Made by a program: the position numbers and the translations under genes. A DNA stretch of 64,000 nt from Deferribacterales bacterium Deferri_01 (lineage in GTDB: Bacteria; Chrysiogenota; Deferribacteres; Deferribacterales; Geovibrionaceae), in NCBI GenBank assembly GCA_001603805.1, contig LUZY01000003.1:248001-312000 (forward strand), read 5' to 3'. Below the pieces are notes generated by a model. It worked only from the letters and a program-made list of their open reading frames with translations. It made no database searches and was not told the origin of the DNA. This document shows, in pieces, positions 10,433-53,198 of this stretch (positions are counted from its first letter, which is position 1; each line of letters begins with the position of its first letter).

Positions 10433-10526
10433 AGGTTCCATGGATGGAACCTCGCCGTGCGTAGCGAAGCCGTGTTTATCACGGCGCGAGCGTGTATGTA
10501 AAAACCACAGGATGTATGTTTTTACA
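10433..10526 (+). repeat. Structured repeat unit 1, proB array
   Basis: 94 bases. Stem I AGGTTCCAT-GG-ATGGAACCT is a perfect 9-bp palindrome. A conserved block TCGCCGTGCGTAGCGAAG follows (itself a small TCGC/GCGA stem). Stem II is GCCGTG-TTTAT-CACGGC. A second conserved block GCGAGCGTGTATG leads into stem III, TGTAAAAAC...GTTTTTACA with AGGATGTA in the loop. Unit 2 and two units upstream of hldD share this design. Confidence 0.92.
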
Positions 10527-10535
10527 TTAATATAT

Positions 10536-10561
10536 AAGTGCATGCACGATTTCATGGACTA
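10536..10561 (+). other. Spacer unique to the proB array
   Basis: About 26 bases separate the two proB units and are absent from the hldD array. It contains the perfect 10-base palindrome GTGCATGCAC (10539-10548) and the word TTTCATGGACTA before the next unit. Confidence 0.5.
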
Positions 10562-10655
10562 AGGTTCCATGGATGGAACCTCGCCGTGCGTAGCGAAGCC
10601 GTGTTTATCACGGCGCGAGCGTGTATGTAAAAACCACAGGATGTATGTTTTTACA
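10562..10655 (+). repeat. Structured repeat unit 2, proB array
   Basis: Identical to unit 1 over all 94 bases as far as I can read. Its stem III ends only 10 bases before the proB start codon, so the repeat forms the proB 5' untranslated region. Confidence 0.92.
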
Positions 10656-10665
10656 TTAATAAAAT

Positions 10666-11811
10666 ATGAGACATTTACCTGAAATAGAAACCCTTGTTGT
10701 CAAAATAGGAAGCAATATTCTTCTCTGTGAGAACGAAGGGCTCAACTTAGACTTTATCCGTTCTCTTGCTTCTTCAGTCGCTGATGTTCAGAAAAAAATT
10801 AAAAATATAGTAATAGTTTCTTCCGGTGCTGTGGGAGCGGGTTTCAGGCATTTAGGCTTTTCTTCCAGACCAAAAAACATCACAGACAGACAGGCATGTG
10901 CAGCCATAGGGCAAGCTCGTCTTATATGGCTGTATGAAAAAGAGTTTGAGAATTTCGGAAAGAGTGTTGCGCAGATTCTCATCACGAAAGATGATTTTTC
11001 CAATAGCCGCAGGTGTCTCAATGCACGTTATGCTATCCGGCGCCTTCATGAGTTTGGCGTGATACCGATTATAAATGAAAACGACACTGTAGTTGTTGAT
11101 GAGCTTAAATATTTTGAATCATTCGGTGATAATGACAATCTCTCTGCTCTGGTTGCCGGGCTTATAGGGGCTGATCTTTTGCTCATTCTTTCTGATGTTG
11201 AGGGACTTTACGATAAGAACCCTTCGGTTTATCCGGATGCAAAGCTGATACACGATGTTCAGTATATAGATGAAAACCTTATGAATGCCGCCGGGGAGTC
11301 TGTGAGCGGAGTTGGTACAGGCGGTATGGGCTCAAAGCTCAAGGCTGCAAAAAAGGCTCTGGACGCCGGATGCCATGTGGGTATAATCAACGGACGTAAT
11401 ACAGAGAATATAACCAGATTCATAAACGGCGATCTTGTGGGAACATACTTCTCACACACTGAAGATGTTTACCGTATCAGAAAATTCTGGATAGCTCACG
11501 CAGCAAGTGTTAAGGGGACTATTTCCATTGACGCAGGCGCGGTTAAGGCTATAGTAGATATGAAGAAGTCGCTTCTCCCGTCCGGAGTGGTAAATATCGA
11601 GGGACGTTTTGGTATCGGGGACATCATCTCCGTGACAGACAGCGCAGGGCATGAAATCGCCAAAGGTAAAACACGCTACTCCAGTAAGGATATGAGGCAG
11701 ATTAAAGGCAGAAAATCCGCTGAGATCTTCGATTTACTCGGCTATAAATTTTCAGATGAAGTGATACACAGAGATGACCTTGTGGTATCTCTTGAAAGGG
11801 GGCACGGATGA
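10666..11811 (+). CDS. proB: Glutamate 5-kinase with PUA domain
   Basis: First step of proline synthesis: phosphorylates glutamate with ATP. 381 residues, the usual length for the long form: an amino-acid-kinase domain (about 1-265; VVKIGSNILL near 11, VSSGAVGAG near 50, INENDTVVVDE near 140, VGTGGMGSKLKAA near 215) and a C-terminal PUA domain (about 285-370; VKGTISIDAGAVKAI). The ATG at 10666 is the only start candidate fitting the family, and there is no Shine-Dalgarno sequence in the 20 bases before it, because the repeat array ends right there. Translation may rely on an A/T-rich unstructured start or on the repeat. proA follows with a 4-base overlap. Confidence 0.96.
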   Translation: MRHLPEIETLVVKIGSNILLCENEGLNLDFIRSLASSVADVQKKIKNIVIVSSGAVGAGFRHLGFSSRPKNITDRQACAAIGQARLIWLYEKEFENFGKSVAQILITKDDFSNSRRCLNARYAIRRLHEFGVIPIINENDTVVVDELKYFESFGDNDNLSALVAGLIGADLLLILSDVEGLYDKNPSVYPDAKLIHDVQYIDENLMNAAGESVSGVGTGGMGSKLKAAKKALDAGCHVGIINGRNTENITRFINGDLVGTYFSHTEDVYRIRKFWIAHAASVKGTISIDAGAVKAIVDMKKSLLPSGVVNIEGRFGIGDIISVTDSAGHEIAKGKTRYSSKDMRQIKGRKSAEIFDLLGYKFSDEVIHRDDLVVSLERGHG

Positions 11812-13043
11812 AGGAACTTTTTGAAAAAGCCAGAGCCACTTCCTACAAGCTGATGAATCTGAATACAAAAGTTAAAAACGAGGCACTCGCAGCAATTGCC
11901 CGTAAGCTTGACGAACACCGGGAACTGATTAAAACTGAAAACGCCAAAGACCTGAAGGCGGGCGTTGAAGCAGGCTTAAGCTCTTCTCTCATGGACAGGC
12001 TTAAGCTGGACGACAAAGCCATAAACTCCATGATTAAGGCTGTAAACGAGATAAAAGAACAGACTGACCCTGTTGGTTCTGTTGTTGATGGATACAAGCG
12101 CCCCAACGGGCTTTATATAACTAAGATTCGGGTTCCTCTCGGTGTTGTGGGGATTATTTACGAGTCAAGACCTAATGTAACCATAGACGCTGCGGCACTC
12201 TGCCTTAAGTCCGGAAATGTTTCCATACTCAGAGGCGGAAAAGAGGCTATACATTCAAATGCGTGCCTTGGCAAAATAATGGAAGAGGCGATAGCCGAAG
12301 CCGGTCTGCCGGAAGGTGTTGTGAATATTGTTCCTGACACTGACAGGTTCAGAGTAACTGAAATGCTTCAGGCAAAAGGATATATCGATATAATCATTCC
12401 CAGAGGCGGAGCAGGGCTGATTAAGTTCTGCGATGAAAACACCTGTATACCCCTTGTTAAGCATGATAACGGAATATGCCATGTTTACGTCGATAAGGAT
12501 GCTGATATCGAAAAAGCGCTTAAAATAGCACGAAATGCTAAGGTTCAGCGTCCGGGTGTGTGTAATGCCGCAGAAACTCTTCTGGTGCATGAAGATGTTG
12601 CGGGTGCATTTTTACCTTCCTTCGTTGAGTGTACCTCAAAAGACGGTCTTGAGATCAGGGGCTGTGAGAGAACGCTCAGTTTTGTTGATGTCAAGCCTGC
12701 AACAGAAGAAGACTGGCGCACGGAATATCTTGATCTTATTATTTCCATTAAAGTGGTTTCCTCAATGGAGGAGGCTTTGGTACACATAAACAGATATGGC
12801 TCCGGTCATTCCGAAGCGATTATTACAGAAAACTATACAAGTGCGAGATACTTTATGGACAGGGCGGACGCTTCTGCCGTGTTTGTGAACGCATCCACAA
12901 GATTTAATGATGGCGGGGAGTTCGGATTAGGGGCTGAGATAGGTATCAGCACGCAGAAACTTCACTGCCGCGGACCTATGGGCGCCTTTGACCTGACAAC
13001 TACAAAATATCAGGTTTACGGCGACGGTCACATTCGGGAATAA
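11808..13043 (+). CDS. proA: Gamma-glutamyl phosphate reductase
   Basis: Second step of proline synthesis: NADPH-dependent reduction of glutamyl-5-phosphate to the semialdehyde. 411 residues, standard length. The aldehyde-dehydrogenase fold is recognisable: GVVGIIYESRPNVT (about 110), KSGNVSILRGGKEA (about 135), the catalytic cysteine in QRPGVCNAAETLL (about 252), and GAEIGISTQKLHCRGPMG near the end. The ATG overlaps the proB stop (ATGA), so proB and proA are translationally coupled. Together they supply the semialdehyde that cyclises to the proC substrate; proC is not in this window. Confidence 0.97.
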   Translation: MKELFEKARATSYKLMNLNTKVKNEALAAIARKLDEHRELIKTENAKDLKAGVEAGLSSSLMDRLKLDDKAINSMIKAVNEIKEQTDPVGSVVDGYKRPNGLYITKIRVPLGVVGIIYESRPNVTIDAAALCLKSGNVSILRGGKEAIHSNACLGKIMEEAIAEAGLPEGVVNIVPDTDRFRVTEMLQAKGYIDIIIPRGGAGLIKFCDENTCIPLVKHDNGICHVYVDKDADIEKALKIARNAKVQRPGVCNAAETLLVHEDVAGAFLPSFVECTSKDGLEIRGCERTLSFVDVKPATEEDWRTEYLDLIISIKVVSSMEEALVHINRYGSGHSEAIITENYTSARYFMDRADASAVFVNASTRFNDGGEFGLGAEIGISTQKLHCRGPMGAFDLTTTKYQVYGDGHIRE

Positions 13044-13044
13044 G

Positions 13045-13689
13045 ATGCGTCTGGGACTTTTCGGCGGAACATTCAATCCTATACATCTGGGGCATGTGAC
13101 TCTTGCAGGTAATGTTTTCAGGGATTTTAAGCTGGATCGGCTCCTGCTTATCCCATCAAGCATTCCTCCGCACAAACAAGGAAGCGGGGTAATATCACCC
13201 GAACTAAGATACGAGATGGTTCAGCTTGTTGCCGAGAAATTAGGCAAAGGGTTTGAAGTTTCCGGCTACGAAGTCAATTCGGCGGAAGTGTCTTATACCT
13301 ATAAGACTCTTAAAAAATTCAGAACAGATTATCCCGATGCGGAAATATTCTTCATTGCGGGAACTGATATTTTTGTTACCATAGAAAAGTGGCAGTATTG
13401 GCGTGACCTTTTCAGGCTCGCTAATTTTATAGTCGTAAACCGCTCTTCAGTGAGTTTTGATGAACTGATGAAGCGTATCCCCGTCAGCCTCAAGGAGATG
13501 GTTGTCAGACCTGATGAGTATAACGGGGAGAAATACGGCAGGATAATACTTTACAACATGCCTGAAATTGACATTTCAAGCACTGAAATAAGAGATATGC
13601 TGGATGCGGAATACAGAAAGGCAAATCTGCCTGAAGATGTATATGAATTTATACGCACCAACAATTTATACAGGAGAGCCAATGGCTGA
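13045..13689 (+). CDS. nadD: Nicotinate-nucleotide adenylyltransferase
   Basis: Makes deamido-NAD from nicotinate mononucleotide and ATP. 214 residues; starts one base after the proA stop. The nucleotidyltransferase motif GGTFNPIHLGHV is at the N-terminus (His-x-x-His type), followed by PSSIPPHKQ, FIAGTDIF, and the C-terminal ISSTEIRDML that closes the ATP site. This gene next to rsfS is a common bacterial arrangement (nadD-rsfS). It overlaps rsfS by 8 bases. Confidence 0.96.
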   Translation: MRLGLFGGTFNPIHLGHVTLAGNVFRDFKLDRLLLIPSSIPPHKQGSGVISPELRYEMVQLVAEKLGKGFEVSGYEVNSAEVSYTYKTLKKFRTDYPDAEIFFIAGTDIFVTIEKWQYWRDLFRLANFIVVNRSSVSFDELMKRIPVSLKEMVVRPDEYNGEKYGRIILYNMPEIDISSTEIRDMLDAEYRKANLPEDVYEFIRTNNLYRRANG

Positions 13690-14053
13690 AGACACTCTTT
13701 TAAGAGACATAGTAAAATACCTTGACGACAAAAAAGCGGAAGACATCGAAATTTTTAAAATAGCGGAAAAAAGCAGCCTTGCTGATTACCTTGTGATCGC
13801 CACCGCAAACTCAAACACACATGCAAACGCCCTTGCTGATTTTATTTTGCAGGAGCTTAAAGGACAGCAGATTCAGCCTTACGGGCTTGACGGATACAAG
13901 GTTTCAAAGTGGATCTGTGTTGACTTCGGAAGCATCCTTCTCAACATAATGTGTGAAGATGAGAGAAACTACTACAACCTTGAATCAATTTGGGGCGGAT
14001 GCACAAAAATAGACGCTTCGCAGTTTTTTGAGGCTCCTCAGAAAAACGCCTGA
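13682..14053 (+). CDS. rsfS: Ribosomal silencing factor RsfS
   Basis: RsfS binds ribosomal protein L14 and blocks subunit joining when nutrients are scarce. The start at 13682 is preceded by AGGAGAG, giving 123 residues; a longer frame upstream lies wholly inside nadD and has no site. The family pattern is clear: an N-terminal helix, DIEIFKIAEKSSLADYLVIATANS (about 23-46), HANALADFI, and DFGSILLNIMCEDERNYYNLESIWG near the C-terminus. It overlaps nadD and trmL at its two ends, in keeping with one translationally coupled operon. Confidence 0.95.
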   Translation: MAEDTLLRDIVKYLDDKKAEDIEIFKIAEKSSLADYLVIATANSNTHANALADFILQELKGQQIQPYGLDGYKVSKWICVDFGSILLNIMCEDERNYYNLESIWGGCTKIDASQFFEAPQKNA

Positions 14054-14541
14054 TGATCAAAATCGCCCTTATCGAACCTGAAATACCCCAAAATACAGGA
14101 AATATAGGCAGAATTTGCGTGGGAGCAGACTGTGAGCTGCTCCTTGTTGGCAAGCTTGGTTTCTCTATGGATGATAAGTACATGAAGAGAGCAGGGCTTG
14201 ACTACTGGGAAAAAGTGCGTCTGCAACGTATTGAAACTATTAGTGAATTTTTTAATAAATACGATACTCCGGAATACACTCTTGCATTTCTTTCCAAAAA
14301 GGCAGAAAAAATCTATACGGAAATACCCGCCAAAAATGACGGGACTCTGGTGCTTGTCTTCGGCAAGGAAACACTGGGGCTTTCCGATGATATTCTGCAA
14401 AAATATGCTGAAAGAAGCTACCGCATACCCACCACAGGAAATGTGCGCAGCCTGAACATTGCTAACACGGTTTCAATTGTTACTTTTGATGTTCTGCGGA
14501 GGCTTAATTTTGCAGGGCTGGAGAGAAAAATATGCTTGTAA
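14053..14541 (+). CDS. trmL: tRNA (cytidine/uridine-34-2'-O)-methyltransferase
   Basis: A SPOUT-class methyltransferase that 2'-O-methylates the wobble base of some tRNA-Leu species. 162 residues, the usual size. It begins MIKIALIEPEIPQNTGNIGR, the TrmL hallmark, and carries the trefoil-knot motifs LVFGKETLGLS (about 97) and IPTTGNVRSLNIANTVSI (about 125). The start codon overlaps the last base of the rsfS stop (TGATG). mqnA begins 10 bases before its end. Confidence 0.93.
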   Translation: MIKIALIEPEIPQNTGNIGRICVGADCELLLVGKLGFSMDDKYMKRAGLDYWEKVRLQRIETISEFFNKYDTPEYTLAFLSKKAEKIYTEIPAKNDGTLVLVFGKETLGLSDDILQKYAERSYRIPTTGNVRSLNIANTVSIVTFDVLRRLNFAGLERKICL

Positions 14542-15317
14542 TCGGGCAGATAGACTATGCAAACGTCTACCCCATCTTTCATCAACTGAACAAACACAGC
14601 GAATACAAATTTGTTAAAGGTGTTCCTTCGTATCTTAATAAAGCTCTGAGGGAAGGGGTCATAGACCTTTCTCCGTGCAGCAGTATTGAATACGCCAAAT
14701 CATTTGAAGACTACATCCTGATCCCCGGAATCTCCATAAGCAGTACAGAAAAAGTAAAAAGCGTGATGCTTTATTCTGAAGTTCCCATCGAAGAGCTTAA
14801 AGGGCGTAAGGTTTTTCTCACCGGAGAATCCGGCACGAGTGTTGTTCTGTTCAGGATACTGGTAAATGAAATGTACGGTTTTCAGCCTGAATTTACAGAT
14901 CAGCAGGATGAGGCAGATGCTAAGGTTCTGATAGGGGATAAAGCACTTTTTGAGCTTTATAACGGGCAGAATAAGCATGTGTATGACCTCTGCACTCTTT
15001 GGAATGCTTTCACTGGTCTGCCGTTTGTTTTTGCTCTGTGGATAGCCAGAAAAGACTCAGTTAAAGAGAAAAGAACCGAGTTTGAAATGTTTGCAGGACA
15101 GCTTGATGAGATAAAAAAGGACAGCAAGTCAAACCTTGCTGCTTTGCTTGATCATTACTCAATGAAGGGGCTTACTTCATACCAGATAATCGACTACTGG
15201 GAAACAATGGACTACAGCCTGTCAGACAGGCACGTTCAGGGGCTTCTGCGTTTTTACAGCTATGCCAGAAAATACGGAGCCATAAAAGAGGTTCCGCCTA
15301 TTAATTTCTTTATATAA
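14532..15317 (+). CDS. mqnA: Chorismate dehydratase, futalosine pathway
   Basis: First committed step of the futalosine route to menaquinone: chorismate to 3-enolpyruvyl-benzoate. 261 residues. The family pattern of a periplasmic-binding-protein-like fold is visible: IGQIDYANVYPIFHQL at the start, GVPSYLNKALREGVIDLSPCSS (about 36-57), VMLYSEVPIEELKGRKV, TGESGTSVVLFRILV, and DKALFELYNGQ with a late IDYWETMDYSLS. MqnD is a related family but lacks this N-terminal pattern. Its presence implies menaquinone-based respiration without the MenFDHCEBA route. The ATG lies inside trmL, so it is the last gene of the proB operon, followed by a terminator. Confidence 0.9.
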   Translation: MLVIGQIDYANVYPIFHQLNKHSEYKFVKGVPSYLNKALREGVIDLSPCSSIEYAKSFEDYILIPGISISSTEKVKSVMLYSEVPIEELKGRKVFLTGESGTSVVLFRILVNEMYGFQPEFTDQQDEADAKVLIGDKALFELYNGQNKHVYDLCTLWNAFTGLPFVFALWIARKDSVKEKRTEFEMFAGQLDEIKKDSKSNLAALLDHYSMKGLTSYQIIDYWETMDYSLSDRHVQGLLRFYSYARKYGAIKEVPPINFFI

Positions 15318-15330
15318 TTCTTGAAACAAG

Positions 15331-15366
15331 AAAGCCCCTGAAAGCAGATGCTCAAAGGGGCTTTTC
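15331..15366. terminator. Bidirectional terminator between mqnA and amtB
   Basis: Stem AAAGCCCCT/AGGGGCTTT with a 16-base loop, T-rich on both sides. It separates the convergent mqnA and amtB genes and can serve both. Confidence 0.85.
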
Positions 15367-15388
15367 TATGTAAAAATCCGGGTGATTT

Positions 15389-16648
15389 TTAAAGTTTGAT
15401 AACCTGCTCGCCGTGAAGGTTAATATCCAGACCTTCTGTCTCTGTTTCTGCACTTGTTCTTATGCCCATTGTAAATTTGATTACCAGAGCAATGATAAGG
15501 CTGAGAACAAAGGAGTATATACCCGCAGCCATTATGCCTTCAAACTGAAGCCAAACCTGATAAGCATTACCTTTAACAAGACCTTCCGCACCCACTGTGG
15601 CAAATATTCCTGTTGCTATAGCACCCCAGAAACCGCCTATTCCGTGTATGCCGAAAACATCCAGAGATTCATCAAGCTTGAAGATGAACTTGAGACGGCA
15701 GCCGTAAAAGCAGAGTATGCCCGCTACAAAGCCGATCACTATCGCTGCCCAGGGCTCAACAAAGCCTGCAGCTGGTGTGATGGCAACGAGCCCTGCAACA
15801 ATACCTGATGCGAGACCAATACCGCTGGGTTTTGACTTAAGAGCTTCCATAAGGAGCCAGCCGAGAGCCGCAGCACCGGGAGCAACAAGTGTGTTTACGA
15901 ATGCTACACCTGCGCCTTCTCCTGCGGAAAGGGCACTGCCGGCGTTGAATCCGAACCAGCCGAACCAGAGTATCCCTGCGCCGATAAGTGTATAGCCAAC
16001 GTTATGAGGAATTGTGGCGCTTTTCATAAAGTCTTTTCTGTTGCCGAGAACTATGGCAAGTGCAAGTGCCGCTGTACCTGATGAGAAGTGGACAACGGTT
16101 CCGCCTGCGAAGTCCAGCGCTCCTCTTTCGAGCAGCCATCCGCCAGCTCCCCACACCCAGTGTGCGATGGGTGCATAGACTATTGTTGCCCATACAGATA
16201 TGAAAATAACAAAAGCGGAAAACTTCATTCTTTCCACAACAGCGCCGCTAATCAGAGCGCAGGTGATGATGGCGAACATTCCCTGAAACATTGCAAATAC
16301 AGAGAGAGGTATTGTTCCTGAAAGCTCACTGGCAAATGAACCGCCCATGAGGACATACTGAAGGCTGCCCCAAACGGAAGAACCGCTGTCGCCGAAGGCA
16401 ATTGAAAAACCTATCAGAACCCACTGAACACCTATCACCGCCATTGATATAAAAGAGAGCATCATTGTGTTAAGTGCGTTTTTCGCACGAACCATACCGC
16501 CGTAAAACATCGCCAGACCGGGCAGCATAAATAAAACCAGAGCCGCAGACGTGAGTACCCACGCTGTGTCGCCCGGATTAACTTCGCCTTCGCCCGCAAA
16601 TGCCGTTACAGATAAAAGAAGTGTCAATACACCTGCTACAAATTTCAT
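15389..16648 (-). CDS. amtB: Ammonium transporter
   Basis: An inner-membrane channel for ammonium/ammonia. 419 residues behind AGGAGGAG. It begins with a probable cleavable signal peptide (MKFVAGVLTLLLSVTAFA), as in some Amt proteins, followed by about 11 membrane spans. The twin pore histidines are in GGTVVHFSSGTAALAL (about 180) and GIHGIGGFWGAIATGIF (about 335); the N-terminal gate region has FMLPGLAMFYGGMVRAKN. The C-terminal tail GLDINLHGEQVIKL is the part that normally contacts GlnK. No glnK is adjacent, which is unusual because amtB is often paired with it. Expression is probably nitrogen-controlled through the sigma-54 promoter just upstream. Confidence 0.96.
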   Translation of the reverse strand: MKFVAGVLTLLLSVTAFAGEGEVNPGDTAWVLTSAALVLFMLPGLAMFYGGMVRAKNALNTMMLSFISMAVIGVQWVLIGFSIAFGDSGSSVWGSLQYVLMGGSFASELSGTIPLSVFAMFQGMFAIITCALISGAVVERMKFSAFVIFISVWATIVYAPIAHWVWGAGGWLLERGALDFAGGTVVHFSSGTAALALAIVLGNRKDFMKSATIPHNVGYTLIGAGILWFGWFGFNAGSALSAGEGAGVAFVNTLVAPGAAALGWLLMEALKSKPSGIGLASGIVAGLVAITPAAGFVEPWAAIVIGFVAGILCFYGCRLKFIFKLDESLDVFGIHGIGGFWGAIATGIFATVGAEGLVKGNAYQVWLQFEGIMAAGIYSFVLSLIIALVIKFTMGIRTSAETETEGLDINLHGEQVIKL

Positions 16649-16672
16649 AACTCCTCCTGTTCGCCCTATTCA

Positions 16673-16689
16673 TGCAAGAGACGTGCCAA
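16673..16689 (-). promoter_or_regulatory. Sigma-54 (-24/-12) promoter of amtB
   Basis: Minus strand reads TTGGCACG-TCTC-TTGCA: GG and GC are exactly 10 bases apart and both elements match consensus. The predicted start is near 16662, about 14 bases before the amtB ATG, so the leader is barely longer than the ribosome site. I did not recognise NtrC sites upstream. Confidence 0.85.
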
Positions 16690-16782
16690 AACGTTACTAT
16701 GATTTTTTGCGGTTTCAGAGATATCAGGTGGTTAAAATTTCAGCAGTTATGCTTAAAAAAAGAACGTACGTCTATCGGCTGT

Positions 16783-19700
16783 TTATGTGGCGGAAGGGAG
16801 AATAATTGTCAGAACAGCACCCTGCGAGGTGTTTTCCAAGGTTATGTGACCGCTCATGTTATTTTCTATTACAGTTTTGGACATATACAGTCCGAGTCCT
16901 GTTCCTTTGCCCTGTTCCTTCGTTGTGAAATAAGGGTCAAAAACTTTGGCGGAGTTTTCGGGGGCTACCCCGGTTCCATTGTCTATTATACGTATGATTA
17001 TTTCTGCGTCATTTTTATCTGCTTCAATAGTGATGGAAGGTTCAAACAGATCTTCGGAGCTTCTGCGCTCGTTTATTGAATCTGCTGAATTTTTCAGGGC
17101 AGTGAGTATTACTTGTTTAAAGTCAGAGAGATAACCCTGTACAAGAAATGAGCTGTCCTCAATGAGGACGCCGGAGAGAATATCTGTATAAACTTTTCTG
17201 TCAGTGCCTGAAGTTACAAGGCTTAAGGAGATTCCGTCACTCATTATCCTGCCGGATATCAGCCTTGCGGCGTCTGTTGCGGCGGTAACAGCGCTGAATA
17301 TTGTTCTGCCGTCCATCGGTTTGTAAAATCCGCTGAAATCATCTATGGTTTTAGACAGCATGCTTATCTGGAGCATGGTTTTCTGAACAGTTTCTCTGAC
17401 ATATTCAGGGCTAATTTCCTTATGCTCAAATGCGTCTTCCAGATCCTGAACATAGAGCCCTATGGTGTTTAGCGGCTGTCTCCACTGGTGTGCGATTGAA
17501 CCGAGCATCTCACCCATGGCAGCCAATCTGGACTGCGACATAAACATTATCTCCTGCTGGCGGTGTTTCTCCACTTCCGCAGCTATCTTGCGCTCAAGCT
17601 GGTATTGAACCTCTTTTATCTCTGAAATATCCGTAAAGGTGGCAAGCGCGGCCTGTCTGCCTTCGTAGTTTATACCGCTCAGGGTCATGAAGATGCTTTT
17701 CTGCACACCGTCTCTGCGGTTCAGGCGTATATCCTGAAGTTTTTTTGTGGATCCTTTCGAACCTGTTACGCTGAAACAGGAGTTCTTGACAATACTCTGC
17801 TGTTCCGCAGAAACAAGCTCCCACAAGCTCACAGATTCCAACTCCCTTAAAGAAAATCCGGAGATCTCACATGCCATCGGGTTAGCGTAGTGTATTTTAT
17901 CGCTGAAAACAATTATGCCGACAGGGACTTTTTCCGAAAGCGCACGGAAAAGCTGTTCACTTTCAGATATTTTTTTCTGTAGTTCCATTCTGTTTGTTAT
18001 GTCATAAATAATAAGGAATAGTTGCACATGTTCTTTGAATTTAAGCAGTGTGGAGTGTATTTCAGTTTCTCTCACACTGCCGTCGGGCAGTTCCTGAGTT
18101 ACAGTTCCCTGATGGATAAATCGCTCAAGTGAGAAAGAAAATCCTTTATCTTTTCCATGGATAAAGTCCATTATATTTTTGTTTATAAGCTTGTCTTTGT
18201 CCGTTTGGTAGAACTTCTCAGCGGCGTTGTTTATATCGTGTATTATCCCGCTGACGGGATCAATCAGCATCATCACAGCGGTGTTTTTTATGAACACTTT
18301 TCTGAAAAGCTGTTCATTTTCATTAAACATATTCTCTGCTGTTACAAAACGGTCTATGTTTACCATCGAGCCTCTTATGCCATCGGACTGTCCTTGTTTG
18401 TTTTTGACTTGTCTTACAGTGCTTTCCACCCATATAACTTTACCGTTTTTCTTTCTGATTCTCAAGCGTACGGGTTGTTTATCTGCTTCTGAGCCGTATT
18501 TATGGGTGAACCACTTTTCAGTGTCTGTGTCGTAGATTATTCTGTCCAGAACAGCAGGGGTTTTGTTTAGTTCCTCTTCTGTATAGCCTGTAAGGTTTTT
18601 GCATCCGGACGATATGAACCTGAAGTCACCTTCGGCACCTATCCAGTACTCCATTCCGTTTATTCCGCCGGATATAACCTCGGCAGAGTACAGCGACTCT
18701 TTGCTTTTTTCAGTCAGTTGTCTCATTGTGCGGGCAAGACCCGCCAGCTCCGGTTCTTTTTCCATTTCTGAGAATTTGTCTGCGAGATTGAGTGATTCAG
18801 GATTTATTGCCTCTGCGAGATCTGCCAGTTTTCTTTCAAGCCTTCTGTACAGCAGGAACGAAATAAAGAAACTGCTCAGTAAAATAACGGCAGCAGATGG
18901 AATTACCTCTGTGAGTATCACTTTTCTGGCAGAAAAGACCGATGCTGATGGAACAGAAACGGTCATTATAAACCCTGTGCTTTTTATACGCTCAAAAAAC
19001 AGAAGGTATTCTGTTCCGTTATAATCCGAAGCTAAAATACCTGATTTTTCCTTAAGCATTCTGCCGGTAAAAGGGAGTATATCAGGACTTGTCTGCTGAA
19101 TTCCATTCTGTACATCAATGTCCTGTCCGTCCCTGCTGTCGTATATTGTTTTTCCGGCAGAGTCGGTTATCAATATATTTGCTGAACTTTTCTGAAGCAA
19201 CGGAAGAAGAATATCCTCTGCCATATCTTTACGGAAAGACGCCATACTTATTATTCCGCCGAACATTCCGGCTGTTCCGCCGCTATTGCCTATAATAGTG
19301 GAGGCGGTTACGAAATATTGCGTATCAGAAAAATAAAATTGTTCGGGAACAGATATGTAGACACTTTTGTGATCAGAATTTTGAACTACGGTGCTTTGCC
19401 AGAACTGCTTGTCTTTAAGGGTTAGCAGTTCGGAGTACGGGGATTTATCATCAATACTCACAAGTCCCTTTTTATGGGGGTTGCCGTATCCTGTTGAATA
19501 AAATATTCCTCCGCTGGTTTCACCGCCGGCGAGTATAAAATTATCGTACCTGCCTATGCGCCGTCCAAGCTCATTCTGAAGAAAAGGGCCGATTTTTTTC
19601 CAGTCCATGCTTTTGATTACAGGAGTTTCACTGAGAAGGGTTATATCGTTGGTACGTTCTTTGAGGTAGTTTTCAAAATAAACGGCAGAAATTTTCAGGG

Positions 19701-19836: not shown

Positions 19837-19968
19837 GGCGTACCCTGAATTTAGTGCCTGTTCATAAAATCTTCATGTTAAGTATGCATAATTGCAGATA
19901 TATTTGTAAAGCCTTTTAAATAAATTAAGAAAATATTGAATGATCTGTACATTTATGCTAGGAGTCTC

Positions 19969-20004
19969 ATGATGATTTCAATAAAACGGTACTTGCATCT
20001 ATGA
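19969..20004 (+). CDS. Possible 11-codon coupled leader ORF
   Basis: ATGATG at 19969 follows AGGAG (19960-19964), and the frame ends at a TGA (20002-20004) that overlaps the ATG of the next gene (ATGA). The next gene has no ribosome site of its own, so it is probably translated by coupling to this leader (MMISIKRYLHL, or one residue shorter from the second ATG). Confidence 0.45.
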   Translation: MMISIKRYLHL

Positions 20005-22236: not shown

Positions 22237-22266
22237 TTCTGTTCATTATCAGTAAATGTCTTCTGA

Positions 22267-22300
22267 CAGGCAGAATCCTGTGAAGGAATCTGCCTGTTCG
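22267..22300 (+). terminator. Probable terminator
   Basis: Stem CAGGCAGA/TCTGCCTG with a 14-base loop followed by TTCGTTT, 30 bases after the glycosyltransferase stop. The T run is weak. Confidence 0.55.
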
Positions 22301-23784: not shown

Positions 23785-23793
23785 GGTGCAGAA

Positions 23794-28693: not shown

Positions 28694-28694
28694 A

Positions 28695-39453: not shown

Positions 39454-39497
39454 CCGGATGTAATTTTATTGTTTTTTTGTATGTTTCGCAACATTAA

Positions 39498-40130: not shown

Positions 40131-40134
40131 TCCG

Positions 40135-42482: not shown

Positions 42483-42680
42483 AGGCAGAAGATAATACCG
42501 AAGGGGAGGATTTATCAAGCTATACTTTACATTACCGCTTATTTATGGGGTTTTTCATCTGCAATGAGGAAAAATTTTACTCCATTTTTTTTGACACGGC
42601 GTTTTACGGATGGTACGCTTGTGCTGAAAGTTTAGCTTACAGATAATTTAAATATAATATTCTCCAAGGGAGGTTAATCA

Positions 42681-43508: not shown

Positions 43509-43533
43509 TTTCCCGATCCACAGGAGAGGATTT

Positions 43534-45849: not shown

Positions 45850-45858
45850 CGGTGACCG

Positions 45859-46629: not shown

Positions 46630-46728
46630 AACCTTAACCTTATTGTTTTTTGATAAATTATGTCTTTATATTTTCGGGAGATCATCTATTATTATAGGTT
46701 ACAGAACCCATAAACAACAGGAGAAACG

Positions 46729-49557
46729 ATGCCTCAACTGACCAAAAATATTTTTGAAGAACTTTCGGAAAATATTAAGGGTGATGTTTACACCGATAAG
46801 ATAAGACGATATATGCACTCAACAGACGGCAGTATATTCAGAGTCGAACCTGCCTGTGTTGTGTATCCCCTTGATAAAGATGATATCAGAACAGTTGTGA
46901 AGTTCTCGTCCCGCTACGGGCTTTCCATCCACACCAGAGGTTCGGGAAGCGGTCTGTGCGGTTCAGCCATAGGTAAAGGGCTGATACTGGATTTCTCAAA
47001 ATACATGAATACCCTTGTTGAACTTGATGAAAAAGGGAAGACATTCACCTGTCAGCCGGGATACCGCTTCGGTGAGCTTGAAATTATGCTCAAAGGAAAG
47101 GGGCTTTTCTTCCCGCCTGATCCTTCCAGCGGAGAATATGCAAGCTTCGGCGGAATGTACGGCACAAACGCAAGCGGTGCGCACTCTGTTAAATACGGCA
47201 ACGTATCCGACTACATAGAAGATGCGAAGCTTATCCTTGCGGACGGCACTGAAACAACTATCAAAACCCTTGAAACAACACCTTTTGACAAGCTTCCGCC
47301 TAAGTTTAAGAAATTGTATAAACTCTACGAAGAAAACATGGAAGAAATTGAAAGCGCCTATCCCTCAATACGCTGTAATGTTTCAGGTTACAACCTGAGA
47401 GGATTGGTTAAAAACGGCGGGCTTCATATAGGTAAGCTTCTGGGCGGCTCTGAAGGCACGCTGGCGATAGTGACGGAGCTTACATTCCGCCTCCATGAAA
47501 AACCTGCGTTTGACAGCCTTGTGGTTGCTTATTTCGATGATATAGTCAAGTCCGCTCAGGCGGTGCAGAAGGTTCTTCCCTCAAACCCATCGGGTATTGA
47601 GATAATGGACAAGTCCCTTCTCAATCTCGCCAGAGAGTCTGATGCCAAGCTTAAAGAAGCCATACCCGAAGGTGTGGACAATGTTCTTATGATCGAATAC
47701 GACGGTTATGACAAGGATGAAGTCCGCAGACTGGCTGAAAAAGCCATGACAGATATTGAAGACCTCACCACATCTGCTTATGTGGCGGCTTCCGAAGAGG
47801 AGGCGGCTAAGTTCTGGGCTGTGCGTAAGGCAGCAGTGCCGATTCTTTACAAGCTTAAAGGGCGCAAAAAAATTCTTGCTCTTATTGAAGACGCCGCAGT
47901 CCCCACAGACAGGCTTGTGGATTATTTCAAAGGCTTATACGCCATACTGCACCATCATAAGGCTGATTTCGTGATTTACGGTCATATCGCAAAGGGGCTT
48001 CTGCACACCAGACCTCTTCTTGATCTGAAAGACCCTCACGATATAGAAATGCTTAAAACTCTTGCTGACGAAGTGTTTGAACTTGTAAACGCCCTCGGCG
48101 GCGTTGTCAGCGGTGAACACGGAGACGGCAGACTCAGAACAGCGTATATCAGAGAGCAGTACAAGGATATTTATCCGCTGTTTCTTGAAACCAAATCAAT
48201 TTTTGATGTTGAAGACCTGCTGAATCCGGACATTAAAACTGTCAGTGATGATGAGCAGATGATGAAATATCTCCGTTTCGGTTCGGATTACGGCAGTTCG
48301 GATCTCACAGGCAAACACCTTGTCTGGAACGAAGGTTTCACTGATGAGGCTGAAAAGTGCCATGGCTGTTCAAAATGCACCACAGTTACTTCAGCTACAA
48401 GAATGTGCCCTGTGTATAAGGCCACAAGAGACGAAACTGCAGCTCCCAAGGCAAAAGCAAATGTACTGCGCGCACTTATAAGCGGTGCTATAGACGGCGA
48501 TTCGCTTTATGAGGAAGCTTTCCAGAATGTTATCAATAAATGCGTGAACTGCGGAAGCTGTGTCATGGAATGCCCCTCTAATGTAAATATACCCAAGCTC
48601 GCAATCGAAGCTAAGGCAATGTATGTTAAGAGGTTCGGCGCCGGTATAGAAAATAAGATAGTTGCCAACTGCGACATACTCGGAAAATACACTCATAAGA
48701 TCAGCCCTTTAATAACCAAAGCGATGAAGCTTAAGCTGAACCGCAAGGTTATGGAGATTATGACGGGTGTTACGGCAGAGCGTCCGTTTGTGGGTTTTAG
48801 CGGCAAATCTCTCTTTGAGAGGGCAAGCACCCGTGCCTTCCGCACCAAGGGCGAACTTAAGGTTGTTTACTTCGCCGGATGCTACGCAAGCTACATGAAC
48901 CCTGAACTGGGGCTCTCCACTATAGATGTTCTTGAACACATAGGCTGTGAAGTCATTCTGCCTGAACAGTTCTGCTGCGGAATCCCTTTTCTTTCCAAAG
49001 GCATGACGGATGATGCCAAACTCAGGGTGAAAAAGAACCTCGCAAGCTGGGGCAAGGCTATGGAAGAGGCTGATTATGTTGTTGTCTCCTGCTCATCCTG
49101 CGGGCTGTCACTGATGAAGGAGTGGAAATTCCTCATGAGCGATTCACAGGTGGAAGCGGTGAGCAAAAAGCTCATCCACGTCAGCGCACTTGTTAACATG
49201 AGAAGAAACCGTTTGAGAGTTAAGGAGAAAAACCTTAAACTTTCCTATCATAAATCCTGTCATATGAAAGTACAGGCTGATAACAACTGCTCAGTTGCAA
49301 TGCTTGCATCAATACCCGGAGTTAAGGTCACAGACCTTAACAGTAATTGCTGCGGAATGGCGGGAAGCTGGGGTATGAAATCAGAAAACTTTGAACTCAG
49401 CGCAAAAATCGGCAAGCCGATGATAGATAAACTTAACGAATCCGAAGCTGATTACGGCGTAACAGACTGCCCCACATGCACAATACAGATGCAGCATATG
49501 GGAAATAAAAAGGTAAAACACCCGGTTGAGGTGCTGAAGGAATGTTTGGAAGACTGA
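46729..49557 (+). CDS. FAD-linked oxidase fused to Fe-S/CCG subunit (D-2-hydroxyacid dehydrogenase-like)
   Basis: 942 residues behind CAGGAGAAA. The N-terminal half is a GlcD/Dld-type flavoprotein: PCMH fold with HTRGSGSGLCGSAIGKG (about 65) and GGMYGTNASGAHSVKYGN (about 140), then KLLGGSEGTLAIVTELTF, and a C-terminal cap with GHIAKGLLHTRP and GGVVSGEHGDGR (about 465). The C-terminal half is GlcF-like: two [4Fe-4S] motifs (CHGCSKCTTVTSATRMCPVY near 545 and CVNCGSCVMECPS near 605) and two CCG boxes (FAGCYASYM...FCCGIPF and YHKSCHMK...NCCGMAGSW). Such fusions oxidise D-lactate, glycolate or a similar 2-hydroxyacid and pass electrons to quinone. With larC and larB later in the window, D-lactate is an attractive but unproven substrate. 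Confidence 0.92.
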   Translation: MPQLTKNIFEELSENIKGDVYTDKIRRYMHSTDGSIFRVEPACVVYPLDKDDIRTVVKFSSRYGLSIHTRGSGSGLCGSAIGKGLILDFSKYMNTLVELDEKGKTFTCQPGYRFGELEIMLKGKGLFFPPDPSSGEYASFGGMYGTNASGAHSVKYGNVSDYIEDAKLILADGTETTIKTLETTPFDKLPPKFKKLYKLYEENMEEIESAYPSIRCNVSGYNLRGLVKNGGLHIGKLLGGSEGTLAIVTELTFRLHEKPAFDSLVVAYFDDIVKSAQAVQKVLPSNPSGIEIMDKSLLNLARESDAKLKEAIPEGVDNVLMIEYDGYDKDEVRRLAEKAMTDIEDLTTSAYVAASEEEAAKFWAVRKAAVPILYKLKGRKKILALIEDAAVPTDRLVDYFKGLYAILHHHKADFVIYGHIAKGLLHTRPLLDLKDPHDIEMLKTLADEVFELVNALGGVVSGEHGDGRLRTAYIREQYKDIYPLFLETKSIFDVEDLLNPDIKTVSDDEQMMKYLRFGSDYGSSDLTGKHLVWNEGFTDEAEKCHGCSKCTTVTSATRMCPVYKATRDETAAPKAKANVLRALISGAIDGDSLYEEAFQNVINKCVNCGSCVMECPSNVNIPKLAIEAKAMYVKRFGAGIENKIVANCDILGKYTHKISPLITKAMKLKLNRKVMEIMTGVTAERPFVGFSGKSLFERASTRAFRTKGELKVVYFAGCYASYMNPELGLSTIDVLEHIGCEVILPEQFCCGIPFLSKGMTDDAKLRVKKNLASWGKAMEEADYVVVSCSSCGLSLMKEWKFLMSDSQVEAVSKKLIHVSALVNMRRNRLRVKEKNLKLSYHKSCHMKVQADNNCSVAMLASIPGVKVTDLNSNCCGMAGSWGMKSENFELSAKIGKPMIDKLNESEADYGVTDCPTCTIQMQHMGNKKVKHPVEVLKECLED

Positions 49558-50753
49558 CAGCCTTTCTACTTGTAAGCGTTTTCTATCTTGTTTCCGCCCA
49601 TGCGGATGAAGGCGATTACCTTATGGGTCTGAACGCATACAAAGACGGACTGAACAGTGTGGCGAGAATGGGCTTTGAGGCTTATCTCGCCGATTCTCCC
49701 GATCAGGCAAACAGGCACTACGCCGAGTATTTAATGTACCGTATTCTCCTTGAAGACGGCGAATTTGAAGGTGCATACGCATACTTTACAAAGATAGAAA
49801 AGGTTAACGACTCCCGCTTTGATCAGAACGTGATCAAAGGCGACAAAATGCGTTTTCTGGTTCGTAAAGACTGTGATGCCGCCAAAGCGGAACTGATCGC
49901 CGGTACCTCTTCCGCCGGAGCGGCGGTTTACACTGAATCATCCTGCGGGGTTGACGCCGCCGCCGCAAAGGCAATCGCCGCAGTGAGCAAAGATTCTAAA
50001 GTGCTTCTCGCAGCCGCAGCAAAAGCTCAGGGAGATCCCGAAGCCGCCGGGGCTCTTTTCTCAGGTATAAATCCCAAAAACCTCACCGCCGAACAGGCAA
50101 AGTATTTCGGTGTTCTTTTTTACAAAAACGGCAATTATGACAACTTCTGGAAAGTTTACGGGGTTTATAAAGACTCCGATATGGTAAGTCTCGCTCTGGA
50201 CAGGTTTTGGAGTATTAAGGACTACAAAGGCTATATCTCAAGCTTTGAGGCAAACCGCAAAAGCTACAGCCTTGAATCAGCCGTTTTCTGTCGTGCAATT
50301 GAGTCATACAAACAGACCGGATCAGATTTTGACTGTGAATTGCTGGATAGCTGCATAAAAGATAAAAACGCAGATTTCGCAAAAACAAAAACAGCATGCC
50401 TGATAAAAAGCGGCAAGAACCCCCTTGATGCTGATATTGACTCTTTCGGATCTCCTGCTGTTCTAGGTGTGTGCGACTATGTGCCCTATATGGTCGATAA
50501 AGGAATTTACAACGGTAAGTCCTTCGGGGAATTTGCCTCATGCGCTAATAAGTTTGACATAGCGGAACTTCTGTACCGCAAAAAGAATTTTGGCAAACTC
50601 CTTGAGATAGCATCTAAAGGAAGTGACGACAGGGATTATTACTATGTGACGCTTGCCCACATCGGTCTTGGCGACAGAGCGAAGGCGTCCGTCGCCGCAC
50701 AGAAGATCAAGGATGCTGAGTTGAAGGCTTATTTAAGCGGGCAGGTAAAATGA
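49542..50753 (+). CDS. Exported helical-repeat protein, function unknown
   Basis: 403 residues with a signal peptide (MFGRLTAFLLVSVFYLVSAHA) and a start inside the end of the oxidase gene (16-base overlap). The mature protein is almost all helical with an irregular 30-40-residue periodicity (FEAYLADSPDQANRHYAEYLMYRILLE, FEGAYAYFTKIEKVNDSRFDQNVI, GALFSGINPKNLTAEQAKYFGVLFY), recalling TPR-like or Sel1-like solenoids without their exact consensus. Several cysteines are spread along it. It overlaps the next, also TPR-like, gene by 4 bases. The pair is probably a periplasmic scaffold. I do not recognise either family. Confidence 0.7.
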   Translation: MFGRLTAFLLVSVFYLVSAHADEGDYLMGLNAYKDGLNSVARMGFEAYLADSPDQANRHYAEYLMYRILLEDGEFEGAYAYFTKIEKVNDSRFDQNVIKGDKMRFLVRKDCDAAKAELIAGTSSAGAAVYTESSCGVDAAAAKAIAAVSKDSKVLLAAAAKAQGDPEAAGALFSGINPKNLTAEQAKYFGVLFYKNGNYDNFWKVYGVYKDSDMVSLALDRFWSIKDYKGYISSFEANRKSYSLESAVFCRAIESYKQTGSDFDCELLDSCIKDKNADFAKTKTACLIKSGKNPLDADIDSFGSPAVLGVCDYVPYMVDKGIYNGKSFGEFASCANKFDIAELLYRKKNFGKLLEIASKGSDDRDYYYVTLAHIGLGDRAKASVAAQKIKDAELKAYLSGQVK

Positions 50754-51472
50754 AAAAGTTTTTAATAGGATTCATCTTTATTTCGGTTTTCTTTGCTGCT
50801 TTGCTTTACAACTATATGTCTGATGAAAGCCACAAACTTTATAACGAAGCAGTCAAACTCTATGATGAACAAAAGTATTTTGAAGCCCACGAAAAAGTGA
50901 AAGAGGCTATGGATAAAAATATGCTCAACCGCAAAGCGATCTTGCTGAAGTCAAAGCTTTACGAGATTGTAACGGGTGAGGAGAATTATCAGGAGGCATC
51001 CCGCCTTTATGAAGAGGCGGTAAACCTTGCAATGAAGGGCAACGGTGAACAGGCTAGGGTAAATATTGTCCGTTCCCTTGAGCTTCTGGATAAGGTTCCC
51101 TCCACCGCTCCGTCAAAGGAAAAGGCGGATAAGCTCATCGAGCGTATAGCCCGTGATGCGGAACCCCTTTTGAGCAAAGCACCCGATGTTGCATACCGCA
51201 GGGCGAAAAGCTTTTATGAGCAGGGCAACTACCGCAGAGCCTACGAAAATCTGGTTCGGCTTCCAGCTCTTTCACCTGAAGGAAGAGCAATGAAAAGCTC
51301 TGCCGCATATAAGGCCGGGCTGGATGTTTATACCAGCATAAAAGACCTTCCTGACATCTCCAATGCTGAAATATATGACGCTATCTACTGGTTTGAGCAG
51401 GTGGAAAGCGGTCAGCCGGACTATATGGACGCAACAGAAAAAATAAACGAACTAAGGGCAAGGCTCAATTAA
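50750..51472 (+). CDS. Membrane-anchored TPR-like protein, function unknown
   Basis: 240 residues. A single N-terminal membrane helix (FLIGFIFISVFFAALLYNYM, residues 4-23) with the rest outside the cytoplasm by the positive-inside rule, followed by helical repeats: LYNEAVKLYDEQKYFEAHEKV (about 31-51), SRLYEEAVNLAMKG and AYRRAKSFYEQGNYRRAYENL (about 152-172), the TPR pattern of aromatic and Ala positions. It overlaps the exported solenoid gene by 4 bases (ATGA). A stretch of about 60 bases then leads to hldE. The role is unknown; an envelope-assembly scaffold is plausible. Confidence 0.7.
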   Translation: MKKFLIGFIFISVFFAALLYNYMSDESHKLYNEAVKLYDEQKYFEAHEKVKEAMDKNMLNRKAILLKSKLYEIVTGEENYQEASRLYEEAVNLAMKGNGEQARVNIVRSLELLDKVPSTAPSKEKADKLIERIARDAEPLLSKAPDVAYRRAKSFYEQGNYRRAYENLVRLPALSPEGRAMKSSAAYKAGLDVYTSIKDLPDISNAEIYDAIYWFEQVESGQPDYMDATEKINELRARLN

Positions 51473-51535
51473 TTTCATTGCGCTGATTCGCTGAAAAATG
51501 CTAAAAACGTGTCAGTATTCCAAGAGGTTATCTTC

Positions 51536-52930
51536 ATGTCAAACTATGACTTCACAGGCGTAAGAGTTCTCGTTGTCGGGGATGTTATGCTTGATAAATA
51601 TTATTTCGGCTCGGTCCGCAGAATTTCTCCGGAGGCTCCCGTTCCTGTGGTCAGGGTTAAGGATTCCAAGCTCACTCTGGGCGGTGCGGGGAACGTTTTA
51701 AGCAACATAACCCACCTTGGCGCAAAGGGAATAATGTTTTCCTCATGCGGTCAGGATGACAACGCAGTTACTCTGAAAAAGCTCCTTGATGAGCTTGGTG
51801 CCGACTGCGGGTTCATTGAGCGTGATCTCCCCACTGTCACCAAGCTCCGTGTCATAGGCGAAAAACAGCAAATAGTCAGACTGGATTTTGAAGAAATTGT
51901 GCCTGTCAGCCTTACTGATGAGCATAAACGCTTCATAGATAAGGCAGCGTCAGAGTGCGGAACTGTGGTTCTTTCTGATTACGGCAAAGGTGTCTGCACT
52001 GATGAAATGTGCAGATTTGTCATAGAAAAAGCAGCAGAATACGGCAGAAAAGTGATTGTTGACCCCAAAGGGAGCGACTGGAGCAGATACAGCGGGGCGG
52101 ACATTGTAACCCCTAATGTTAATGAACTTGCAGAAGCAGCAGGCAGAAATGTTGAGAACGTTGATGATGAGGTTTGCGCCGCTGCCAGAGAAATTCTTGG
52201 TAAATACGGCATAAAGTGCCTTCTTGTTACCCGCTCCCACAAAGGTATGAGCATAGTAACGAAGGAAAGCGCAACGCATATCCCCACGGAAGCGAAAGAG
52301 GTTTTCGATGTTTCCGGTGCTGGGGATACTGTTGTGGCTACCCTTGCCGCCGCTCTGGCGAACGGTTATGAACTGGAAGCCGCAGCAGTTACAGCAAACA
52401 AGGCGGCTGGAATAGTTGTAAGCAAAATAGGCACTGCGCCTGTTTACATAAATGAGCTTAATGAAGAGGGCAGAAGCCACGCAGTGACAAGTCTGGATTC
52501 CATGCTGCGTATTGTGGAAAACCTTAAAAGAGCAGGCAAAACAATAGTGTTTACAAACGGATGCTTTGATATACTGCATAAAGGGCATGTTACTTACCTT
52601 CGTGAGGCTAAAAAGCTTGGTGATGTGCTTATCCTCGGTCTGAACACGGATGATTCCGTACGCAGGCTTAAGGGCGAGTTCAGACCTGTAAACTCCGAGG
52701 ATGACAGAGCAGAGGTTCTCTGCTCCCTTGAATCTGTGGATTATGTTGTCAAATTCGGTGAGGATACACCACTTGAACTGATCGAAAAAATACGTCCTGA
52801 TATACTGGTTAAGGGCGCAGACTATAAAATAGAAGATGTTATCGGGCGTGAATATGCCGGAAAGACTGTTTTAATAAACTTTGTTGATGGATATTCCACA
52901 ACGTCTATCCTGGAGAAAAGCAAAGGCTGA
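51536..52930 (+). CDS. hldE: Bifunctional heptose 7-phosphate kinase/heptose 1-phosphate adenylyltransferase
   Basis: Makes ADP-D-glycero-beta-D-manno-heptose for LPS inner core. 464 residues from the ATG at 51536 behind AGAGG; a GTG 27 bases upstream lacks a ribosome site. The N-terminal ribokinase-like domain (about 1-310) has VLVVGDVMLDKYY, LGGAGNVLSNI and DVSGAGDTVVATLAAAL (GAGD box, about 255). The C-terminal cytidylyltransferase-like domain (from about 335) has VFTNGCFDILHKGHVTYL (His-x-x-His) and VKGADYKIEDVIG. The product goes to HldD, encoded just downstream beyond the second repeat array. gmhA and gmhB are not in the window. Confidence 0.96.
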   Translation: MSNYDFTGVRVLVVGDVMLDKYYFGSVRRISPEAPVPVVRVKDSKLTLGGAGNVLSNITHLGAKGIMFSSCGQDDNAVTLKKLLDELGADCGFIERDLPTVTKLRVIGEKQQIVRLDFEEIVPVSLTDEHKRFIDKAASECGTVVLSDYGKGVCTDEMCRFVIEKAAEYGRKVIVDPKGSDWSRYSGADIVTPNVNELAEAAGRNVENVDDEVCAAAREILGKYGIKCLLVTRSHKGMSIVTKESATHIPTEAKEVFDVSGAGDTVVATLAAALANGYELEAAAVTANKAAGIVVSKIGTAPVYINELNEEGRSHAVTSLDSMLRIVENLKRAGKTIVFTNGCFDILHKGHVTYLREAKKLGDVLILGLNTDDSVRRLKGEFRPVNSEDDRAEVLCSLESVDYVVKFGEDTPLELIEKIRPDILVKGADYKIEDVIGREYAGKTVLINFVDGYSTTSILEKSKG

Positions 52931-52954
52931 CAGCGGTAACGTTTACTATGCTGT

Positions 52955-52993
52955 GAGCGTGTATGTAAAAAAAACAGGATGTTTTTTTTTGCA
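52955..52993 (+). repeat. Partial copy (3' part) of the structured repeat, hldD array
   Basis: GAGCGTGTATG followed by the A/T stem and TTTGCA, 25 bases after the hldE stop. Just before it, the word GTTTACTATGCTGTGAGCG looks like a decayed stem II. Confidence 0.75.
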
Positions 52994-53002
52994 TTATCAA
53001 AT

Positions 53003-53095
53003 AAGTCCCATGGAAGGGACTTCGCCGTGCGTAGCGAAGGGCTGTTTACCAGCCCGCGAGCGTGTATGTAAAAAAACAGGATGTATTTTTTTGCA
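53003..53095 (+). repeat. Structured repeat unit 1, hldD array
   Basis: 93 bases with the same order of elements as the proB units: stem I AAGTCCC-ATGGAA-GGGACTT, conserved block TTCGCCGTGCGTAGCGAAG, stem II GGGCTG-TTTAC-CAGCCC, conserved block GCGAGCGTGTATG, stem III TGTAAAAAAA...TTTTTTTGCA. The alignment with the proB units over the first 70 bases needs no gap. Confidence 0.92.
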
Positions 53096-53104
53096 TTATC
53101 AAAT

Positions 53105-53198
53105 AAGTCCCATGGAAGGGACTTCGCCGTGCGTAGCGAAGGGCTGTTTACCAGCCCGCGAGCGTGTATGTAAAAAAAACAGGATGTATTTTTTTACA
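53105..53198 (+). repeat. Structured repeat unit 2, hldD array
   Basis: 94 bases, almost identical to the first hldD unit; the A run is one base longer and the stem III end is TTTTTTTACA instead of TTTTTTTGCA, which turns a G-T pair into an A-T pair. It ends 26 bases before the hldD start codon. Confidence 0.92.

Follow-up and report, generated by a model that had tools for sequence, protein, structure and literature searches.

CsrA, a global post-transcriptional regulator, recognizes RNA sites that carry an ANGGAN hexaloop; the repeat of the small RNA CsrB reads CAGGA(U/A/C)G, and the ligands obtained by SELEX (systematic evolution of ligands by exponential enrichment) conform to RUACARGGAUGU with AC/GU pairing (PMC7652899). 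A site consensus for CsrA/RsmE, A/UCANGGANGU/A, has also been given (PMC5864733), and CsrA can bridge two sites separated by as much as 63 nt (PMC7652899). Among intergenic repeats, the TAACTGA sequence of marine Beggiatoaceae was judged an unlikely CsrA ligand, since it carries no GGA motif (PMC4679880). In the present study we analysed a 64,000-nt stretch (the window, C3:248001-312000, from contig LUZY01000003.1) of Deferribacterales bacterium Deferri_01, a host placed in Deferribacterota, whose 2.85-Mb genome is available in 14 contigs (labelled G000). Two arrays of a short intergenic repeat precede the proB and hldD genes of the window. We propose, with a probability of about 0.6, that this repeat is a mobile, bivalent RNA module that binds CsrA. 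The comparison included two other species of the same genus (G001 and G002), a sister genus (G003) and two relatives from the same family (G005 and G007).

Architecture and conserved fold of the repeat unit

The repeat unit is about 101 nt long and is composed, in order, of hairpin H1, the block CGCCGTGCGNAGCGAA, hairpin H2, the block GCGAGCGTGT, hairpin H3 and a tail resembling TTATAAA. The third and longer hairpin, H3 (10496-10527 and equivalents), was absent from the description given in an earlier note on this DNA. With up to three mismatches allowed, the core pattern was found 117 times genome-wide, against 4 matches of the backwards-read control pattern. A covariance model gave 128 matches in the window genome, at least 131 in each of G001 and G002, and 8 in G007. 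The units chosen for reading (110 in 56 arrays of the window genome, with one to five units per array) revealed many different stem sequences across the arrays, and the same pattern recurs genome-wide.

The earlier note had compared one proB unit with one hldD unit and described double base changes that keep the stems paired, and this comparison proved accurate. Stem I (AGGTTCC/GGAACCT in proB, AAGTCCC/GGGACTT in hldD) differs by two double changes (G-C to A-T and T-A to C-G), and stem II (CCGTG/CACGG versus GGCTG/CAGCC) by three (C-G to G-C twice, G-C to C-G once). In the loop of stem I, base six also differs (T to A), without a change of its partner, so that a possible A-T pair is broken and the hexaloop is left.

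The wider claim, that the repeat has a conserved fold, is strongly supported for H1, H2 and H3. We aligned 26 non-redundant units with MAFFT (A1), and RNAalifold, applied to this alignment, returned the three hairpins and a core helix unprompted. In this set 97.2% of the pairing cells were paired, as compared with 72.9% after shuffling, double changes filled 214 cells (61 after shuffling) and were present in 23 of 34 pairs, and pairing dropped to 31–47% in all slid controls. The covariation check that had been suggested was performed with a tree-aware test modelled on R-scape (G-test with average product correction, column evolution being simulated on the tree). It revealed 15 significant column pairs, all 15 of them within H1, H2 or H3 and none elsewhere. 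An independent set of 19 units from G001 and G002 gave 95.5% pairing versus 73.7% in shuffled alignments. Taken together, the high pairing, its repetition in other species and the 15 significant pairs show that the fold is real. The objection that the compensatory changes merely separate two unrelated subfamilies, each derived from a palindrome, fails, because dozens of loci provide single pairs with as many as four standard pair types, or more. Single-sequence folding energies were moderately better than those of shuffled sequences (z about -3), and those of the minus strand were better still.

The sequence between the stems behaves differently. Columns 21-36 of A1, the conserved core strand, are near-invariant, and the core helix CGCCGU/GCGAGCG shows one double change in 26 units. 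Columns 27-33 read GCGNAGC with a free N, which we take to match the very stable d(GCGNAGC) mini-hairpin described in work on DNA; such a hairpin could be relevant to a single-stranded DNA stage. Since both the core helix and the mini-hairpin are almost invariant, covariation cannot test them, and the core pairing, which is probable in part, has no support from covariation. The two conserved blocks were correctly described in the earlier note as identical, and four exact copies of each were found: TCGCCGTGCGTAGCGAAG at 10452, 10581, 53022 and 53124 (4 matches versus 0.02 expected) and GCGAGCGTGTATG at 10486, 10615, 53056 and 53158. Their designation as single-stranded is probably not fully correct, since RNAalifold indicates partial pairing between them. 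Units are identical within the proB and hldD arrays, as had been stated, but this does not extend to every array (e.g. C10:79876-80283).

GGA loops and a proposed link to CsrA

H1 and H3 share the loop motif C-A(N)GGAN-G. The pattern CA[N]GGANG was present in 83 of 110 H1 regions and in 94 of 110 H3 regions, against a background of 2.9% per 48-nt window. Loop position N1 is free, and N2 is U, A or C, with G in just 3 of 177 cases. The motifs of H1 and H3 lie 60–65 nt apart (median 61). By sequence, both loops match the CsrA/RsmE site (A/U)CANGGANG(U/A) or the CsrB repeat CAGGA(U/A/C)G, and the GGA is located in the loop of a hairpin with a covarying stem, as it is in CsrA/RsmE sites.

Strand symmetry made a first, loose hairpin survey in either strand uninformative. 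Among intergenic C-A(N)GGAN-G hairpins in 619 kb, the GGA triplet occurred 29 times, whereas the 63 other triplets averaged 0.94 in its place (maximum 7), i.e. it was 31 times commoner, and nearly all of the 29 hairpins belong to repeat units. The sister genus G003, whose units have differing cores, carries 31 GGA loops in 200 kb (mean of 0.83 for other triplets). The hairpin TTCC-A(N)GGAN-GGAA was counted 29, 46, 78 and 109 times in the genomes of the genus and of G003, and the reversed pattern 1, 0, 0 and 1 times; in a phylum-wide comparison this hairpin was abundant in this family only.

The window genome contains one csrA gene, whose product has L4 and R44, both reported as critical CsrA residues (PMC7652899), and is related to solved CsrA structures, RsmE (2JPP) among them. 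From the loop sequences we infer that H1 and H3 are CsrA-binding hairpins. Searches with Rfam families (CsrB/Rsm and other GGA families) gave no match to the units, only chance-level scores far below the gathering thresholds. The presence of csrA was also tried as a predictor of the repeats and was uninformative, most csrA-bearing genomes outside the family being devoid of the hairpins.

The flagellin leader of the relative G005 (L221:10390-10450, i.e. G005:C1:510390-510450) carries a hairpin, TGCGC-AAGGAT-GCGCA, about 50 nt upstream of the start codon and ahead of the Shine-Dalgarno sequence, which itself includes an additional GGA; the arrangement resembles a textbook CsrA-type leader with two sites. 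The leader of Bacillus hag is a classical CsrA target. Because flagellin leaders are classical targets of this protein, the AAGGAT-type hairpin loop of G005 is, by analogy, very likely a CsrA site in this family. The flagellin mRNA (flaA) of Campylobacter is likewise a known CsrA target (PMC4894983).

Position relative to genes

Gene direction around the arrays was called from open reading frames, not from annotation. The upstream gene was co-directional with the unit in 45 of the 56 arrays of the window genome and in 22 of 24 sampled arrays of G001 and G002 (67/80 combined; p = 6e-10), and no consistent direction bias was observed for the downstream gene (38/56 and 14/24, respectively). This strand bias fits a sense RNA that lies within operon spacers or in 3' regions. 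The earlier note had left the choice between folded RNA and folded single-stranded DNA; the bias towards the strand of the upstream gene favours RNA, and from covariation by itself the two cannot be told apart.

Proposed mode of action

We propose that the unit is a mobile intergenic element that would be transcribed together with the preceding gene. Its transcript would be an RNA module, folded so that the conserved core with H2 keeps two CsrA-binding hairpins, H1 and H3, a set distance apart, and one CsrA dimer per unit would clamp both hairpins via its two RNA-binding faces. Lying inside operons and downstream of stop codons, arrays of one to five units would bring CsrA to the mRNA around them, and the more than 100 units in sum would titrate the protein, as a dispersed equivalent of CsrB/RsmZ. 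What selection keeps would then be the loop and the pairing, not the stem sequence, giving rise to covariation. The broader proposal, that the repeat represents a new class of mobile element in the form of a CsrA-recruiting RNA, which spreads with long, variable target duplications and wires operons into CsrA control or titrates the protein, is more tentative, and we would give it slightly less than an even chance.

Several observations weigh against a CsrA-binding module. About a quarter of the H1 loops are without the motif; a missing or truncated H1 accounts for part of these. CsrA ligands selected by SELEX mostly have stems of up to 4 pairs (PMC7652899), whereas those of the units have 7–13. 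Many csrA-bearing genomes of the phylum, including G005 of the same family, are without the hairpins, which are therefore not a requirement of CsrA. In silico folding is no worse for the minus strand, and folding energy thus does not choose the strand; the excess of G-U over A-C is weak (17:7 and 13:8). Finally, loop conservation could serve mobility instead.

Insertion, mobility and alternative explanations

Direct duplications of host DNA, 35–62 bp long, flank seven arrays of the window genome (alignment scores of 30–56, versus a maximum of 12.5 in mismatched controls); overall their length is variable, about 20–60 bp. At a filled site of G002 (G002:C1:1951940-1952040) a unit is located between two copies of GATATTTG...GCTAAGGCA (43 bp), a segment that comprises the last codons and the stop of the preceding gene. 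Empty sites with a single copy of this segment were identified in G001 (G001:C2:98650-98860) and in the window genome (G000:C3:250150-250330). This contrast of occupied and empty sites between sister species proves that the units are insertions. The inter-unit spacers of several arrays are further copies of the duplicated flank, and arrays therefore probably grow by recombination between duplicated flanks.

Such long and variable duplications are unusual for bacterial transposition, and the insertion route to which they point was not matched to any bacterial element known to us. Because the 3' end of the units is fixed and the 5' end varies, target-primed insertion driven by a reverse transcriptase had been suspected. 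A reverse transcriptase domain is encoded in the window genome (G000:C3:114810-115451) and is absent from its two congeners. Since PF00078 was not found in G001 or G002, both of which are unit-rich, target-primed insertion by a resident reverse transcriptase is unlikely. Insertion by microhomology-driven template switching, or by a novel integrase, is possible. Viral contigs yielded two pattern matches and a phage carrier of the units is not indicated; matches outside Deferribacterota were mostly single pattern matches, which we took as chance.

The main doubt about the CsrA module is that selfish spread alone may account for the family, the loops, core and foldback being recognition features of a mobilizing enzyme that acts on DNA or RNA, with nil host function. 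We regard this as unlikely, with a chance that is far from negligible. The insertions with long direct duplications and the empty sites in sister species are what a selfish element would leave, as are tandem growth via duplicated flanks and the very uneven unit copy number between close genera; the duplicated segment, moreover, starts with GA in 9 of 17 junctions (p = 2e-7; a hand-read, tentative list). By itself, however, selfish spread predicts neither fixed CsrA contact bases (A and GGA) with near-exclusion of G at N2, nor the same loops in sister lineages with altered cores, nor the sense-strand bias. The two explanations are not mutually exclusive. A mobilizer of one particular kind, a RAYT (REP-associated tyrosine transposase) or other IS200-type Y1 transposase acting on repetitive extragenic palindromic (REP) elements, is scarcely credible, although high copy number, palindromes and arrays would suit it, and a GNAG tetranucleotide located 5' of H2 presumably resembles the GTAG of REP. 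The Y1_Tnp domain (PF01797, RAYT family) was not found in the complete window genome by a search that was positive in Escherichia coli and other controls. To our knowledge, HUH transposition makes no target duplication, whereas the units carry long direct ones, and the form of the earlier claim that invoked REP transposition can thus be set aside.

Two further explanations concern the stems. Hairpins of a REP-like type could protect the upstream mRNA against 3' exonucleases or govern segmental stability within operons, with loop sequence being irrelevant. The location of the units after co-directional genes and in operon spacers, together with strong stems of 7–13 pairs, would agree with such a stabilizer, but the strict GGA loops, the spacing of 60–65 nt and the conserved core are left unexplained, and we consider it improbable. 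Alternatively, the compensatory changes might be mainly mutational, if template switching in quasi-palindromes copied one arm onto the other and so kept the stems paired. Stems do differ between loci by whole blocks, tandem copies are near-identical and array turnover is fast. This process would explain pairing but not the conservation of loops and core, and would need to operate on three different helices of each unit; as the main cause it is very improbable, and it may contribute to stem change.

The proB and hldD arrays of the window

All features of the two arrays are on the plus strand, and the genes next to them are unrelated housekeeping genes. The first array is preceded by the 3' remnant of an older unit (10395-10430; H3-like ...CCACAGGATGTATG..., recognized by sequence reading). 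H1 of proB unit 1 (10433-10452) has the loop C-ATGGAT-G, a CsrA-type ANGGAN hexaloop. It is followed by the conserved core strand CGCCGTGCGTAGCGAA (10453-10468; near-invariant columns of A1), which contains GCGNAGC, by H2, GCCGTG-TTTAT-CACGGC (10469-10485; covarying helix 4), by the conserved GCGAGCGTGT (10486-10495), a possible pairing partner of the core strand whose invariance places it beyond a covariation test, and by H3, ATGTAAAAACCACAGGATGTATGTTTTTACAT (10496-10527; covarying helix 5), whose loop motif CAGGATG is of the CsrB type CAGGA(U/A/C)G. Unit 2 comprises H1 (10562-10581), the core strand and H2 (10582-10614), and GCGAGCGTGT with H3 (10615-10656), and ends 9 nt upstream of the ATG of proB (amino acid kinase with PUA; 10666-11811).

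The hldD array follows a gene for a pfkB and cytidylyltransferase protein (hldE/rfaE-like; 51509-52930) and starts with a 3' remnant unit (GTGAGCGTGTATG and an H3-like hairpin; 52953-53000; 41 bits). Unit 1 carries H1, AAGTCCC-ATGGAA-GGGACTT (53003-53022), the core strand with H2, GGGCTG-TTTAC-CAGCCC (53023-53055), and GCGAGCGTGT with H3 (53056-53096). In unit 2 the respective parts are located at 53105-53124, 53125-53157 and 53158-53199, and are followed by the Shine-Dalgarno sequence AGGAAGG and the ATG (53225) of the NAD-dependent epimerase gene (hldD-like; 53225-54166).

Variant and diverged elements

Variant units with an additional arm (AAAACCGCCGTTTTGATTTCGGCGGTTTCTG...AGCTTGCT) between core and H2 were observed at L012 (C5:64392), G001:C2:53445-53591 and G002:C1:1945564-1945710. 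A second repeat type, GGCACATGGATGTGCC then CACGGAGTGAGAGCAGCGAGGAGC..., often adjoins the units and also has a CANGGANG hairpin (L028, L060, L063, L065; G002:C1:1951895-1951930). In one cluster of the sister genus (L253, G003:C1:917405-918295) element orientation alternates, as in bacterial interspersed mosaic elements (BIMEs), versus the head-to-tail arrays of the window genome. Other genera of the order gave weaker, diverged matches, in which GGA-type hairpins are kept around a GAGCG-type core; the diverged elements L102, L104, L105, L106, L108 and L109 retain both outer hairpins, mostly with GGA loops. The architecture with two outer hairpins may thus be order-wide and older than the genus.

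Comparison with known systems

Interspersed repeats and CsrA-titrating RNAs are each known, and their combination was not found described in Rfam or in the literature searched. If the proposal is true, an interspersed repeat can carry the binding site of a global post-transcriptional regulator to new places, and titration of the regulator and rewiring of operons would evolve via the copy number of a mobile element, not via a dedicated small RNA. The more than 100 natural variants, in which the stems are free to change while loops and core are fixed, form a ready test set for CsrA recognition.

The TAACTGA direct repeats of marine Beggiatoaceae are, like the units, present in more than 100 intergenic sets and were proposed as sites of a post-transcriptional regulator, but they are 7-bp, unstructured sequences (PMC4679880). 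Miniature inverted-repeat transposable elements (MITEs), enterobacterial repetitive intergenic consensus (ERIC) sequences and similar interspersed repeats are also short, non-coding mobile elements sited in transcripts. The units differ from these in direct duplications of about 20–60 bp instead of a few bp, and in an architecture built around two putative protein-binding loops. MITEs have the short target duplication that a DDE transposase typically leaves, in contrast to the variable ones of the units (about 23 to 62 bp), and, without a dedicated test, no terminal inverted repeats were obvious when the first columns of A1 were set against the last. With REP/BIME elements associated with RAYTs the units share intergenic palindromic repeats at more than 100 copies and tandem arrays; they differ in having no Y1 transposase, long target duplications, stems whose sequence is not conserved, and direct head-to-tail arrays.

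The flagellin-leader sites of the CsrA-FliW system show the same C-ANGGAN-G hairpin, found here upstream of flagellin in G005, and concern a single regulated mRNA, whereas the units are a dispersed family. The CsrB/CsrC and RsmX/Y/Z small RNAs have repeated hairpins whose loops read CAGGA(U/A/C)G or ANGGAN, and are multivalent for CsrA/RsmA dimers, as the units would be. These RNAs are encoded by one or a few dedicated genes, whereas the units are mobile, present in more than 100 dispersed 101-nt copies that would lie within other transcripts, and, unlike these RNAs, have a conserved non-GGA core with H2 and no Rfam family match.

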